From assembly GCA_003130875.1 (NCBI GenBank), contig QEXY01000182.1:1-35914 (forward strand): a DNA stretch of 35,914 bases, in the 5' to 3' direction. This stretch comes from Ardenticatenia bacterium (GTDB taxonomy: Bacteria > Chloroflexota > Anaerolineae > 4572-78 > NAK82). Under the pieces are notes generated by a model. It was given only the letters and a program-made list of their open reading frames with translations, searched no databases and was not told the origin of the DNA. Of this stretch, positions 29,778 through 35,321 are shown piece by piece (the first letter of the stretch is position 1; every line of letters begins with the position of its first letter). The position numbers and the translations under genes are program-made.

Positions 29778-30968
29778 TTATGGCGGCGAGCGCAGGATGC
29801 CTACTCGCGCAGGGGGCTCGCAGGGCATCCGCATGCCCGGGCGCAGATTGCGCACGTGTGCCATCACCACGATCGCCTGGGTGCCCAATTGGGGTTGGTA
29901 GACACCCAACCAGGGCGCTGTGCGATAGGCACGTGCGGCAGCGGTCCACAGCCACAGCGGCAGCTTGCCACTCAGGATGACCCCTTTGTTGGCAGGAACA
30001 CGCGGCAGGCACACCTGCTCGACCTCACTGTAGTCCAGATAACCCCCCGGAAGCGACAGCTCCACCCATACATATGACCCTTGCAGCGTCACATCCGCGC
30101 GCACAGGCGAGGTGGTGATGTCTTCTTTTAATTCAGGAGTGGGCGGTGCAATCCAGCCCAGGCGTACATCGAACTGGTACAGCGGGGCGGGATAGACGTG
30201 TACCGCCAAAGCGGCGTACAGCCAATTGGGGCCACGATCATAGATGGCCAAGGGCAGATGGGGCGGTGCATAGACGAGCACCTTGCCCAGCTGTTCGGGC
30301 TGCCACTGCTCCCACGGATGGCCCATGGCCGATGCCAGCATGCGCCCCAGGCGCTCCAGTTCCACCACCAAATCGGCCGGCGCGTTGGCGATGTGGAGGC
30401 GGCGCAACTCTTCCTGATCGTAGGCGAACAAGCTGGCCACCTGGTCCACCAGCGCGGTGAAGACCACCCCGCTCGCTGTGCTACCGCGTTCCAGCCCGCT
30501 GATCTGTCCGCGCAGCACCGGGCTGTGGGCCTGCACGACGTCCTCACCGGAGCGCACCGAATGGAGATCGGCGATCACCGGCAGGTTATGGCGGCGTGCC
30601 AGCCGAGTCCAATGGCCATGGCTGGCGCGGTCGCGTGTCAGCAGGATGATGTGCGTACAGTGATCCAGGACCACTTCCTGCCAATCGGTGGGCCGACCGC
30701 CTATGTCAACGATCAACGGTAGATGTCGCCGGGCGATATCGCGGCAGATGTGCTGGATCCACTCCGGTGTGACGCTGTTCTTGATACGGATGCGTCGCAC
30801 CAGTGCCTGATCCGCCTCGTTAGCCCAATCGCCCTCGCCGTCGGGAAAGGCGCGCAGGACATAATGGGCGATCTGATGCGCCCGTAGCGCCTTGCTCAGC
30901 GAATACGCTAGCACAGATTTGCCGCTATGCGGTGGGCCGCCGATCGCGACCGCCGGAAAGAGCTCCAT
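29778..30968 (-). CDS. csx3: P-loop NTPase fused to a Csx3 (Crn3-type) CRISPR ring-nuclease domain
   Basis: A 396-aa fusion. Residues 1-190 are a P-loop NTPase/kinase-like domain (GGPPHSGKS at 10-18, Walker B-like LPLIVDIGG at 83-91). Residues about 291-383 are a Csx3 domain: KGVILSGKLPLWLW, AYRTAPWLGVYQPQLG and a closing AH (His371). Csx3 binds and cuts cyclic tetra-adenylate. In the active Csx3 I recall, the catalytic residues lie in Y-H...D-P-R; here those positions read Arg349, Gln358 and Gln360, so activity is doubtful. Residues 236-272 (RGPNWLYAALAVHVY, FDVRLG) look like a second Csx3-type half that keeps D-x-R. AGGAGGG lies 11 bases before the ATG. The gene is divergent from the CARF-LuxR gene and two genes away from cas10. 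Confidence 0.75.
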   Translation of the reverse strand: MELFPAVAIGGPPHSGKSVLAYSLSKALRAHQIAHYVLRAFPDGEGDWANEADQALVRRIRIKNSVTPEWIQHICRDIARRHLPLIVDIGGRPTDWQEVVLDHCTHIILLTRDRASHGHWTRLARRHNLPVIADLHSVRSGEDVVQAHSPVLRGQISGLERGSTASGVVFTALVDQVASLFAYDQEELRRLHIANAPADLVVELERLGRMLASAMGHPWEQWQPEQLGKVLVYAPPHLPLAIYDRGPNWLYAALAVHVYPAPLYQFDVRLGWIAPPTPELKEDITTSPVRADVTLQGSYVWVELSLPGGYLDYSEVEQVCLPRVPANKGVILSGKLPLWLWTAAARAYRTAPWLGVYQPQLGTQAIVVMAHVRNLRPGMRMPCEPPARVGILRSPP

Positions 30969-31062
30969 TAGCCGTGTATCCCTCCTCTCTCCTCTTCCTG
31001 CTCCATCTCGCTCAGGGTTTCACCATCAGCCCCATAGAAGGATCGTTCAATCTCCAGAGAAT

Positions 31063-31075
31063 CGCCAATCTGGCG
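31063..31075. promoter_or_regulatory. Palindrome in the csx3 / CARF-LuxR divergent gap (candidate operator)
   Basis: CGCCA-ATC-TGGCG is a perfect 5-bp dyad with a 3-base centre, 95 bases from the csx3 start and about 30 bases upstream of the plus-strand -35 box. A GTTTTT run follows it on the plus strand, so a weak terminator is the alternative. Confidence 0.3.
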
Positions 31076-31105
31076 GTTTTTGTCGAGCTGGTACCTGTTT
31101 CCCCC

Positions 31106-31134
31106 TTGTCCAGCGAGCGAACTCATGATATTCT
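31106..31134 (+). promoter_or_regulatory. Putative promoter of the CARF-LuxR gene with a flanking direct repeat
   Basis: TTGTCC (31106-31111) and TATTCT (31129-31134) are 17 bases apart. The 10-mer CCAGCGAGCG occurs at 31110-31119, over the start of the spacer, and again at 31166-31175, downstream of the expected transcription start. Two copies 56 bases apart around a promoter would suit looping or autoregulation by the encoded HTH protein; this is inference. Confidence 0.4.
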
Positions 31135-31227
31135 TAGGTAGGACACCCGCGTGGCATAGCCTCTGCCAGCGAGCGCAGGTATCCCCGGCATATCTTTTGG
31201 CCAGCTGCGAGAAAATGTGTCGGAGCG

Positions 31228-32175
31228 ATGACGACCGAAAGCACTCTTCTGGTGACGATGGGTGGCCAGCCCCAGGTGGTGACCTTTGCCCTGGACTGGC
31301 TGCTGACGCGTGGTGAGATCATCCGCGAAGTGGTGGTCTTGCACCTGTCCCCTACGCCTGATCTCCCCACCGAATACCGGCGCACTCAACATGCCCTGGA
31401 ACAGCTGCACCGCGAATTCAGCGGCGACCGCTATCAAGGCCGTCCGTGCCGTTTGCGGCTGATGCCGATTCGCTATGGCAACATGCGCCTGGCCGATATC
31501 CGCGACGAGACGGATGCCGATGTGGTCTGGTGTGCTATCTATCAGCTGTTGACCACTTTGAAAGCACAAGGCCGTCCGCTGCATCTGTGCATTGCCGGTG
31601 GACGGCGCATTATGGGCCTGCTGACGCTCAGCGCGGCGATGCTGCTGTGTGGTCATCAGGATCACGTGTGGCATATGTACACGCCCATCGGTTTCCTGGA
31701 GCAGGCACGCGACGGTGCCATTATGCACGCGCAGCCATCGGACGGGGTTCGCCTGATCGAGGTGCCCTTCGTGCCCTGGGGCACCTATTTCCCTGCCTTG
31801 CGTGAGCTGGCGCCCTCCTCGGCCCAGGTCATCGCCACCCAGACAGCGCAACTGGAAGCGGCCGAGTATGCACGTTGCCGTAGTGTGTTCGAGCAGCTGA
31901 CCCCGCGACAGCGCGAGGTGCTGCGCCTGCTGGCGATGGGGTACACACCCCAGGAGGTCGCCGAACGCCTGCATATCACCCTGGCAACGGTCAACACCCA
32001 CAAGAGCGTCATCCTGGATCAGTGTCGCGTTGCCTGGAACCTGCCAGAGGATGCCTATTTGTCCTATCATTTCCTGCGCGACCATTTCGCCCGGTTCTTC
32101 GAACGCGAACGGAGAAATTCCCCTCCGCATATCTATAACACAAGCGAGGCGCGCGGGCATCATCATTTTGTATGA
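31228..32175 (+). CDS. CARF/ring-nuclease-like (NE0113/SSO2081-type) domain fused to a LuxR-type HTH
   Basis: A 315-aa protein. Residues 1-185 resemble the NE0113/SSO2081 (Crn1) family of CRISPR-associated CARF proteins: LLVTMGGQPQVVTFAL at the start, LADIRDETDAD (88-98) and the cOA-pocket motif CIAGGRRIMG (121-130). Residues 223-268 are a LuxR/GerE helix-turn-helix (LTPRQREVLRLLAMGYTPQE, then TLATVNTHKS). The layout predicts a transcription factor controlled by cyclic oligoadenylate. In Crn1 the catalytic Ser before Pro and the Lys of GGRK matter; here they are Gln14 and Arg127, so cleavage may be lost and binding kept. A close GGAG precedes the ATG. It is upstream of cas10 in the same direction. 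Confidence 0.7.
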   Translation: MTTESTLLVTMGGQPQVVTFALDWLLTRGEIIREVVVLHLSPTPDLPTEYRRTQHALEQLHREFSGDRYQGRPCRLRLMPIRYGNMRLADIRDETDADVVWCAIYQLLTTLKAQGRPLHLCIAGGRRIMGLLTLSAAMLLCGHQDHVWHMYTPIGFLEQARDGAIMHAQPSDGVRLIEVPFVPWGTYFPALRELAPSSAQVIATQTAQLEAAEYARCRSVFEQLTPRQREVLRLLAMGYTPQEVAERLHITLATVNTHKSVILDQCRVAWNLPEDAYLSYHFLRDHFARFFERERRNSPPHIYNTSEARGHHHFV

Positions 32176-32273: not shown

Positions 32274-32573
32274 ATGGTACGTTGGAGGCGAGAACGCGAG
32301 GACGACCTCGAGCGCGATTGGTGGGATAGCGACGACGAGGAAGAGGAGGCGTACTGGCCTGACCCCTATGGATGGTCGCCTTATGGCTGGCCGACGATTA
32401 TGGGGATGCCCTATCCGATCGCGATCGACATTATGCGCGGCAAGTGGCCGCCGGGCCATGAGGACAGCAGCTTCTGGGATGACAGGGGTGCCTTGGATCC
32501 TGGAGGAGACGACCTGTTCTGGGATCCGTTCAGCGGCGGAGGTGGTTTCTTCGACGGCGGGATGGACCTGTGA
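32274..32573 (+). CDS. Small, highly acidic, Trp-rich protein of unknown function
   Basis: A 99-aa product I do not recognise. By count it has 25 Asp/Glu against 8 Lys/Arg and 9 Trp, with an acidic block (WDSDDEEEEAYW, 17-28), a Trp/Tyr/Pro stretch and a Gly/Phe-rich C-terminus. No signal peptide or membrane segment is seen, and it is probably largely disordered. The start is well supported: GAGGAG lies five bases before the ATG. It sits between the CARF-LuxR gene and cas10, all in one direction, so it may belong to the CRISPR locus. A nucleic-acid mimic or scaffold would fit the composition, but nothing proves it. Confidence 0.6.
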   Translation: MVRWRREREDDLERDWWDSDDEEEEAYWPDPYGWSPYGWPTIMGMPYPIAIDIMRGKWPPGHEDSSFWDDRGALDPGGDDLFWDPFSGGGGFFDGGMDL

Positions 32574-32579
32574 CCGAAA

Positions 32580-32597
32580 GCCCACTTCCGGGTGGGC
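32580..32597 (+). promoter_or_regulatory. Hairpin between the small acidic gene and cas10
   Basis: GCCCAC-TTCCGG-GTGGGC is a perfect 6-bp stem with a 6-base loop, seven bases after the small gene's stop and 24 bases before the cas10 start. Without a T-tract it may be an RNA processing or attenuation element rather than a terminator. Confidence 0.35.
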
Positions 32598-32621
32598 ATC
32601 CCTATGTTTCAGGAGGTGAGA

Positions 32622-35321
32622 ATGGCAGAAATAGCGGAAGCAACACTCCAAGCAGCACTGGCCGGGCTATTGCACGACATCGGCAAGTTTGCGCAGCGCA
32701 GAGAAACGACATTCAGGAAACACGCCGAGGTGGGGGGCGAGTTTGTCAAGCACTATGTGCCCCGTCAATGGCACGGCTTTCTATACCCGGTGATGGGTCA
32801 TCACGACAAGCCGCTGATGGGTGACTTAAACAAAGTGGTAGCCCTCGCGGACCGACTGTCCGCTGGTGAGCGCGCCGAGGAAAAGGAAGAGCAGCCGCGC
32901 CAGCTCCTTTCCGTCTTTTGTCGGCTGCAGACCGAGGTGCAGGATGACGAGGGAAAGACCAAAATCCAGCGCTGCTCCGGCGCTGCCTGCTCCGGCGCTG
33001 CCTATTGGCCGCTCCGAGAGCTCGCGTTGCGCAGAGATGTGATCTTTCCTGGAGAAGATTGGTCCGAGGCAGAGGTCCAAAGTGCCTACCAGAAGCTCTG
33101 GAAGGGATTCTCGGGCCATGCGGAAAAGTTGCGAGATACCCATACCTCGGATGGGCAGTTGGATGTCTATCTCGAAAGTTTGCTGCTGTTGATGCAACGG
33201 TACACCTGGTGCATCCCCTCGGCGTATTATCGTTCGCAACCCGACGTCAGCCTCTATGACCACAGCCGTATGACCGCAGCTCTGGCTGCGCTGCTCTATA
33301 AGGCGATAGATGCACCTGTTGTCGACCAGCTGCTCCAAGCGCTCGACACGTGGTACGAGGAGCGTCGTCGGGCAGAGCAAGCAAAGCGCGATGCTGAGGC
33401 CGTGCCCCCACCACAGGCTTTGAATGAGACCCAAGTAGCGCTGTTAGTGGGCGGTGACATCTCGGGGGTTCAGGATTTCATCTACACCATCACTTCACTG
33501 GGAGCTGCCAGTGCACTGCGCGGACGCTCGTTCTACCTGCAGCTGCTGACCGAGGTGCTGGCGCGTTATGTGTTGCACCAGCTAGGACTGCCGATCTGTA
33601 ACCTGATCTATCAGGGCGGTGGCGGGTTCTATTTGCTCGCGCGTGCCGACGACCGCGAGAAGTTGCGCAACATCCAACGCCAGATCAGTGAACGCCTGTT
33701 GCAGCACCATCGTGGTGATCTTTACGTGGCATTGTCGGCAGTGTCGTTGGCTGCTGTGGACTTCTATGGCGGCCGTATCTCCGAGAAATGGGAGGAACTG
33801 ACCCGGACACTGCGCCAGGTCAAAGTTCGTCGTTTCGCAGAGATGGAACAAGGGCTGACAGAGCTGTTCCTGCCTCAGGAAGATGGCGGGGATGAGGAAA
33901 AGCAATGCGCCGTGTGCGGACGGGAACACCTTGGCACCAGAGAAATAAAGAAACCAGATGAGGAGAGCGGTGTGCGCAAGTGCCCGCCCTGCCTCTCGTA
34001 CGAAGAGCTGGGCAAGGATCTGCGCAGCGCGCGTTACCTGTGGTTGCGTGCCTACAACGGAGCATCCAGTGAATCGTCGTCCGAAGGGCTGCCATCTGGC
34101 AACTGGCAAGATGTGTTGGCTGCCTTCGGCTTCGAGGCAGGCGTGAGCGAGAAAGTGCCGCGTCCGAGTGACCAACCCGGAGTGGTGCTGGCTCTGGACG
34201 ACGAAGCGACGCAGCAGCTGGCACCCGACCGTAACACGGCAGTGGGCCGGCGTTTCCTGGTCAACGTGACCCCACGGGTCACCCTGTCGGACCTTGAAAG
34301 ATATCGCAACCAATTGCAGGAGGATCTCAAAGGCGTAGAGGCCGGTGACGTCAAACCCTTCTCCTTGCTGGAGGCGCAATCGCGCGGCATCCACCGATTA
34401 GGTGTGCTGCGCATGGATCTGGATGACGGAGGCAGACTCTTCAGCGAGGGTTTTACCGAATATGATAAGGAAAGCGGCAAAATGTTGCGCCGTTTCGCCA
34501 CCCTCTCCCGCGTCGCGACGCTCAGCTTTGCCATCAGCCTCTTCTTCGAGGGTTGGGTGGAGTTCCTCGCCCAGGAGATGAACAAAGAGACCCGGCAAGA
34601 CCCCCAGCGCGGCGATACGCTCTACTCGATCTACTCCGGCGGTGATGACCTCTTCTTCGTGGGGGCATGGGATCGCGTGATCGAGCTGGCGCGACGGGTG
34701 CGTGCCGACCTGACACCTTTTGCTGCTAATCATGAGGGCATCCATGCCAGCGCAGGGGTGGTGCTGGTGGGCGGCAAGTACCCGCTCTATCAGGCTGCTC
34801 GCGACGCCGGCGAGGCAGAGGATAAAGCCAAGCGCTATAAAGGGAAGGCAAATAGATTGAATGCGAAGAAGGATGCCGTTCACTTTCTGGGGCAGACGGT
34901 AAGCTGGTCACGTTTCGGTCTGGCCCGGCCGCTTGTGGAGGAAATGGAAACAGTGAGCGGCCTGGCGCAGCGATTGGAGCGTCTCACCCGGCCACGAGCG
35001 GAAGGGGGGGCGGGCGTGCCGGCTGCCTTGTTGCGCACACTGATGCGCGCCCAAGAGCATCACGACGCGGCGATGCGAGAACGGCGCAAGCGCGGTGACG
35101 ACTGCAACCGTCAGGGTGAGGAGCAGGTTTTATGGGGCCCCTGGATGTGGCGCACGTACTACATGCTTAGGCGCATGGCCAAGCGTTACGAGACCCAGGG
35201 CGGGCCGGAGATCAAGGAACTGGCCGATCATCTCAAGGAGGACAACTTCCGTGCCATCGAATGGATGGGCCTGGCAGCGCGTTGGGTGGAACTGCTGTCC
35301 CGCGATGCGACAGTGAGATAA
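32622..35321 (+). CDS. cas10: Type III-A CRISPR Cas10/Csm1 with intact HD and GGDD motifs
   Basis: An 899-aa large subunit of a type III effector. The HD nuclease domain is complete (His18-Asp19 in LLHDIGKF, His34, His60-His61, Asp77). Palm 1 starts GGDISGVQDFIYTI (277 on), a zinc module has Cys429/432 and Cys454/457, and palm 2 carries GGDD (673-676), needed to make cyclic oligoadenylate from ATP. TWCIPSAYY and SLYDHSRMTAA are Csm1-type landmarks. ATG 32622 was chosen over GTG 32592 because AGGAGG lies five bases upstream. No csm2-csm5 follows within the window. An in-frame 15-bp duplication is at 32973-33002. Confidence 0.95.
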   Translation: MAEIAEATLQAALAGLLHDIGKFAQRRETTFRKHAEVGGEFVKHYVPRQWHGFLYPVMGHHDKPLMGDLNKVVALADRLSAGERAEEKEEQPRQLLSVFCRLQTEVQDDEGKTKIQRCSGAACSGAAYWPLRELALRRDVIFPGEDWSEAEVQSAYQKLWKGFSGHAEKLRDTHTSDGQLDVYLESLLLLMQRYTWCIPSAYYRSQPDVSLYDHSRMTAALAALLYKAIDAPVVDQLLQALDTWYEERRRAEQAKRDAEAVPPPQALNETQVALLVGGDISGVQDFIYTITSLGAASALRGRSFYLQLLTEVLARYVLHQLGLPICNLIYQGGGGFYLLARADDREKLRNIQRQISERLLQHHRGDLYVALSAVSLAAVDFYGGRISEKWEELTRTLRQVKVRRFAEMEQGLTELFLPQEDGGDEEKQCAVCGREHLGTREIKKPDEESGVRKCPPCLSYEELGKDLRSARYLWLRAYNGASSESSSEGLPSGNWQDVLAAFGFEAGVSEKVPRPSDQPGVVLALDDEATQQLAPDRNTAVGRRFLVNVTPRVTLSDLERYRNQLQEDLKGVEAGDVKPFSLLEAQSRGIHRLGVLRMDLDDGGRLFSEGFTEYDKESGKMLRRFATLSRVATLSFAISLFFEGWVEFLAQEMNKETRQDPQRGDTLYSIYSGGDDLFFVGAWDRVIELARRVRADLTPFAANHEGIHASAGVVLVGGKYPLYQAARDAGEAEDKAKRYKGKANRLNAKKDAVHFLGQTVSWSRFGLARPLVEEMETVSGLAQRLERLTRPRAEGGAGVPAALLRTLMRAQEHHDAAMRERRKRGDDCNRQGEEQVLWGPWMWRTYYMLRRMAKRYETQGGPEIKELADHLKEDNFRAIEWMGLAARWVELLSRDATVR
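32973..33002 (+). repeat. 15-bp perfect tandem duplication inside cas10
   Basis: TGCTCCGGCGCTGCC occurs twice in direct succession, duplicating residues CSGAA (118-122 and 123-127) in frame, between the HD domain and palm 1. It is probably a recent slippage event in a loop. Confidence 0.9.

Follow-up and report, generated by a model that had tools for sequence, protein, structure and literature searches.

A CARF–LuxR fusion protein beside cas10 in Chloroflexota type III CRISPR loci: a candidate cyclic oligoadenylate-responsive regulator

Locus and domain architecture

The window, which here means the whole 35,914-nucleotide stretch of Ardenticatenia bacterium DNA that was analysed, carries on its forward strand a gene for a 315-aa CARF–LuxR fusion protein (31228–32175), a small acidic ORF (32274–32573) and a cas10/csm1 gene (32592–35321). 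Divergent from the fusion gene, the reverse strand encodes a 396-aa P-loop (AAA) protein with a C-terminal Csx3 domain (AAA-Csx3; 29778–30968).

The CARF–LuxR protein matches the PADLOC profile PDLC01855 over residues 3–293 (1.7e-120). Its CARF domain (residues 1–195; 31228–31812, forward strand) features motif I (T10-M-G-G-Q14), D90, K112, motif II (G124-G-R126-R127), H149 and H167, and belongs to a CARF family by a significant match to Pfam Cas_NE0113 (PF09623) over residues 14–196 (E 1.8e-36). The LuxR/NarL-type helix-turn-helix (HTH) domain (residues 219–292; 31882–32103, forward strand) contains the recognition helix T254-V-N-T-H258-K259. The Pfam profile GerE covers residues 223–263 (E 8.1e-11) and scores 41.8 bits, where the gathering threshold is 23.5; it is found at E ≤ 0.001 in 40 of 41 homologues.

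An AlphaFold2 model built from four sequences (the window protein and three relatives) had a mean pLDDT of 69.9, with values of about 80–95 in the HTH core and mostly 58–86 in the CARF part, which is of moderate confidence. The predicted CARF part adopts the Rossmann-like CARF fold. A structure search returned the ring nuclease Sso2081 as the best match (Z 15.5, 2.5 Å over 155 residues), followed by Sis0455 and then the CARF domain of Cad1, while residues 212–293 matched VpsT, VraR and LiaR; Csa3 was among the matches over both domains (Z about 10, rmsd 5.4–5.6 Å). Profile matches and predicted fold therefore agree with the original prediction of a CARF/Crn1-like domain joined to a LuxR-type DNA-binding domain.

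That 41 homologues could be aligned, of which 40 carry GerE, and that both domains have a dN/dS of 0.07–0.13 (about 0.1), indicative of purifying selection, shows that this reading frame is not a chance ORF. A 347-aa ORF that overlaps it on the reverse strand was taken as an ordinary antisense ORF.

The head-to-head partner, the type III operon and the divergent region

The AAA-Csx3 protein matches PDLC01059 (2.6e-133) and Cas_csx3 (2.8e-20). Among 66 loci having upstream DNA, its gene lies upstream of and divergent from the CARF–LuxR gene in 58; the two genes are in tandem at two loci, and six loci lack AAA-Csx3. The Walker-type GGPPHSGKS and the PDGEGDW motif are almost invariant, suggesting that the P-loop part is probably still an enzyme. 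The Csx3 domain (29832–30044, reverse strand), numbered by alignment to A. fulgidus Csx3, has R, R, Q and Q in place of H57, H60, D69 and R71. Ring-nuclease activity of Csx3 requires H60 and D69, and R71 is important for it (PMC7371418). None of 49 homologues retains all four Csx3/Crn3 catalytic residues and two retain D69 together with R71; G45 and P48 are invariant, and Lys or Arg at position 46 is nearly so. With these residues missing, the partner should be classed as a ring nuclease only if a test shows it to be one. The argument that CARF–LuxR need not be a ring nuclease because its Csx3 neighbour is one was dropped for the same reason. A structure model of AAA-Csx3 from three sequences reached a mean pLDDT of 51 and was set aside. 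Fusions of Csx3 to a kinase or AAA domain, of unknown function, appear in earlier papers, the available parts of which mention neither the degenerate site nor the pairing.

Pairwise distances of CARF–LuxR and AAA-Csx3 were correlated across 38 loci (r 0.73). Where a large Cas10 is present as well (14 loci), the coefficient was 0.79 for the pair and 0.39 for CARF–LuxR versus Cas10. This higher co-divergence suggests that the two genes mostly evolve together, as one unit that comes to stand beside different Cas10s, and the pair resembles a movable cassette.

The neighbouring Cas10/Csm1, likely the cyclic oligoadenylate (cOA) synthase, carries the HD motif at residue 28 and GGDD at residue 683; both are intact, in keeping with the signal source that the original prediction had assumed. 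Downstream DNA of 2.5 kb or more is available for 44 loci, the window and Rhodothermus marinus included; 39 of them have a GGDD-bearing Cas10-like gene downstream, in the same orientation and no more than 4.5 kb away. The adjacent Cas10s are about 500 to 900 aa long and are followed by different genes at different loci, which suggests several type III subtypes. At the genome level, Cas10 (PF22335) and CARF–LuxR co-occur with an odds ratio of 9.5 (p 1e-20, shared ancestry not corrected), a value that is too low because PF22335 fails to detect some GGDD Cas10s. The five loci without an adjacent Cas10 are L046, L088, L090, L091 and L095; in three of these genomes a Cas10 is encoded elsewhere, which may allow the regulator to act in trans.

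The window contig ends just after cas10, from which we infer that contig C88 of the same genome continues the operon; it encodes csm2, csm3, csm4, csm5, a CARF-PD-(D/E)xK (Can2/Card1-like) gene and Csx1. The latter, a Csx1-like CARF-HEPN protein (L084:5486-7165), has a C-terminal Csx15 stretch at residues 460–559. An ORF at the start of C88, before csm2 (L084:4-861) and possibly cut by the contig end, had no Pfam or PADLOC match. The 99-aa acidic ORF between CARF–LuxR and cas10 is conserved in two genus members, with the core TIMGMPYPIAIDIMRGKWPPG; it had no Pfam match and was not found in the remaining loci.

Lying between the divergent genes, 30969–31227 is the obvious candidate operator/promoter region, as had been proposed. 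A promoter-like TTGTCC-N17-TATTCT, read by eye at 31106–31134 on the forward strand, faces the CARF–LuxR gene; it is weak, agreeing with the consensus at 8 of 12 positions, and a promoter scan did not list it, as it falls below the scan's cut-off. The pattern TTGnnC-N17-TAnnnT recurs at a kept position, about 90 bp before the CARF–LuxR start, in the window and two other genus members. Gapped-dyad counts and a palindromic motif search found no family-wide shared operator motif in the intergenic regions. The dyad signals were rejected because they mostly reflected conserved coding sequence at the starts of the two genes, and the palindromic motifs because they differed between runs, one of them being made of ribosome-binding sites. 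The divergent start codons are 0–44 bp apart in 20 of the 40 loci of the first set (L050, L056, L065 and L071 among them); these gaps hold little beyond ribosome-binding sites and leave no room for a usual promoter, so promoters must lie inside the opposite gene there. An RNA leader element was also discarded: stem-loops close to the leader start in three genus members were no more stable than those of shuffled sequences (z -0.3 to -1.1), and there was no Rfam match. An inverted repeat, CGCCA-ATC-TGGCG, with a run of T after it (31063–31080) lies in the divergent region of the window and is absent in two genus members.

Ligand-site residues and distribution of the family

A profile built from the CARF part of 35 homologues was aligned to Sso2081, a match that is weak by sequence alone (E 0.008). 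Gly9, Thr10 and Ser11 of Sso2081 correspond to G12, G13 and Q14 of CARF–LuxR, and Gly104, Arg105 and Lys106 to G125, R126 and R127. The Crn1 motifs Gly-Thr-Ser and Gly-Arg-Lys thus have their Ser and Lys replaced, by Gln14 and Arg127 as had been read from the window alone, and both changes are near-invariant: Q14 is found in 39 of the 41 homologues and R127 in 40 (Lys in R. marinus). The Arg105 equivalent, R126, is kept in 34 and replaced by Pro in seven, while D90, read from the alignment as the equivalent of Asp75, is present in the window protein and kept in 33. T10, Q16, K112, G124, G125, A137, D145, W148, H149 and H167 are invariant among the 41, and T254, H258 and K259 of the recognition helix are each kept in 39–40. 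In Sso2081, cA4 binding depends chiefly on Arg105 and Asp75, Arg105 being essential; for cleavage Lys106 stabilises the intermediate and Ser11 matters, although in Sis0455 Ser11 seems not critical (PMC10018336). Taken at the level of sequence, the CARF residue pattern fits a cA4 binder that would cut poorly or not at all.

CARF–LuxR homologues were detected in 112 of 396 genomes of the window's class at 1e-15 or better (up to 28% of the Anaerolineae sampled) and in 83 of the 396 at 1e-40 or better; in a phylum sample the count was 54 of 400 genomes. The close named relatives are Anaerolineae, Ardenticatenia and Caldilineaceae MAGs, that is, Chloroflexota. Outside this phylum, where the spread is little explored, homologues came only from two R. 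marinus plasmids, and the viral and phage collections gave no match. The R. marinus gene stands immediately before csm1–csm5. On plasmid pRMAR01 (L080:11974-12879) it is annotated as a "CRISPR-associated ring nuclease" despite Gln for Ser in motif I, and the protein has an HTH.

A LuxR output had been called unusual for a type III CARF protein. This stands for the literature searched, which yielded no paper joining a CARF domain, LuxR and type III CRISPR; the sole paper combining cyclic oligoadenylate, LuxR and transcription factor concerns other LuxR proteins. Among genomes, however, the fusion is common in Chloroflexota, and profiles spanning it already exist. PDLC01855, named "CARF3--CARF", covers residues 3–293, so the whole architecture is already in a curated set under a name that omits the HTH. 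CARF-HTH regulators (Csa3), this sequence family in PADLOC and the regulator prediction for NE0113, made by Makarova et al. in 2014 (PMC4012209), are already known, and the cOA effectors of a 2025 classification include transcriptional regulators. The LuxR/NarL output, the AAA-Csx3 pairing and the degenerate Csx3 are absent from the literature searched, a set outside which the 2020 CARF classification (PMC7498327) falls; they may have prior mention.

Proposed function and comparison with known systems

Overall, we regard it as reasonably probable that CARF–LuxR is a dimeric, cA4-responsive one-component regulator of the divergent promoter and the csm operon, and it probably turns the adjoining CRISPR genes up or down during virus attack. 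On meeting target RNA, Cas10 would make cyclic oligoadenylate, most likely cA4, given the Csx3, Can2/Card1 and Csx1 relatives encoded in the same genome. The ligand would bind at the CARF dimer interface, where it would be cut slowly or not at all, and re-orient the paired LuxR-type HTH domains, changing occupancy at a site in or near 30969–31227. Transcription of the protein's own operon (CARF–LuxR, the small ORF and cas10, continuing on C88 with csm2-5, the Can2/Card1-like gene and csx1) would be altered, as would that of the divergent AAA-Csx3 gene. We lean towards activation, that is, positive feedback, since most proteins with a LuxR-type HTH activate transcription. Our confidence is limited by Sso1393, a ring nuclease with CARF and HTH, and by Csa3, the DNA binding of which is unmoved by cA4. 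Also counted against a regulator are the lack of an operator motif, the 0–44 bp start gaps, the Arg126-to-Pro change in seven homologues, the five loci without adjacent Cas10, and the CARF model of moderate confidence from four sequences.

It seems unlikely that the protein is instead a ring nuclease, the CARF domain of which cuts cA4 to turn the response off, while the HTH has a structural role or mediates dimerisation, as in Sso1393 and Csx1. The closest folds are indeed those of Crn1 Sso2081 and Sis0455, the R. marinus homologue bears a ring-nuclease annotation, Sso1393 sets a precedent of a CARF-wHTH protein with ring-nuclease activity (PMC8699464), and with a partner Csx3 that looks catalytically dead the locus may need another off-switch. 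However, the motif I Ser and motif II Lys, which matter for cleavage by Sso2081 (less clearly so for Ser11, given Sis0455), are replaced almost throughout the family, and the recognition-helix positions are kept. The Csx15 stretch of the genome's Csx1 also speaks against a ring nuclease here, although the ring-nuclease activity of Csx15 is itself uncertain.

A DNA-binding regulator deaf to cOA, or using another nucleotide, in which the CARF domain serves dimerisation or binding of a partner such as AAA-Csx3, would be in line with the in vitro DNA binding of Csa3, which occurs regardless of cA4 (PMC8844856, PMC8699464), with co-divergence that is strong for AAA-Csx3 (r 0.73 to 0.79) and weak for Cas10, and with the loci lacking an adjacent Cas10. 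The genome-level Cas10 association and the invariant polar CARF residues nevertheless favour a Cas10-derived ligand, and we consider such a regulator quite improbable. Least credible, and in our view very improbable, is that CARF–LuxR works mainly via its neighbour, in one AAA-Csx3/CARF–LuxR complex with both proteins binding cOA and DNA binding secondary: the head-to-head arrangement in 58 of 66 loci, the coefficient of 0.79 and the degenerate Csx3 active site point that way, but gene pairing does not demonstrate physical contact, and AAA-Csx3 is missing beside the regulator in R. marinus and at five further loci.

Alongside the cA4-responsive regulator that we favour, we tentatively raise the possibility that the head-to-head genes form one cOA-reading cassette of two proteins that both leave the signal intact, CARF–LuxR as the switch and a P-loop enzyme controlled by its catalytically dead Csx3 domain, and that this cassette sets expression of the adjoining type III operon. 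If true, this would mean direct second-messenger control of CRISPR transcription in bacteria, with Csx3 used as a sensor. The degenerate Csx3 partner suggests that some proteins filed as ring nucleases are sensors.

Among known proteins, Crn1 Sso2081 and Sis0455 have the closest CARF fold, in which CARF–LuxR carries Gln and Arg for the catalytic Ser and Lys. Sso1393 also has an HTH, but a winged one. The NE0113 and "CARF3--CARF" families (PF09623; PADLOC PDLC01855, PDLC01851) are also close, PDLC01855 taking in the whole CARF–LuxR architecture. NarL/FixJ-type response regulators (VraR, LiaR, NarL) share its HTH fold, with the CARF domain here replacing the receiver domain. The CalpL/CalpT/CalpS system employs a SAVED-Lon protease, in contrast to the direct CARF-HTH fusion of CARF–LuxR. 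It likewise links cA4 to a transcription response in type III CRISPR (PMC12751052).

Csa3 is similar in pairing an N-terminal CARF dimer with a C-terminal HTH. It is a cA4 receptor without ring-nuclease activity and regulates CRISPR genes, features that are proposed here for CARF–LuxR. Csa3 is archaeal (Sulfolobales), linked to type I-A and built from a winged HTH and another CARF family, whereas CARF–LuxR is bacterial, lies in a type III operon and combines an NE0113-type CARF with a LuxR/NarL HTH. The protein is not a Csa3: Csa3_N matches four of the 41 members weakly (best 1.4e-4), the PADLOC Csa3 profile gives E 0.003, and the HTH (GerE) and the context (Cas10/csm) also differ. Csa3 binds cA4, but this ligand left its DNA binding unchanged. 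The bacterial family, in which a LuxR/NarL-type HTH of well-understood kind is combined with a conserved divergent gene pair and a neighbouring Cas10, offers a cleaner test of whether cOA directly controls transcription through a CARF-HTH protein.
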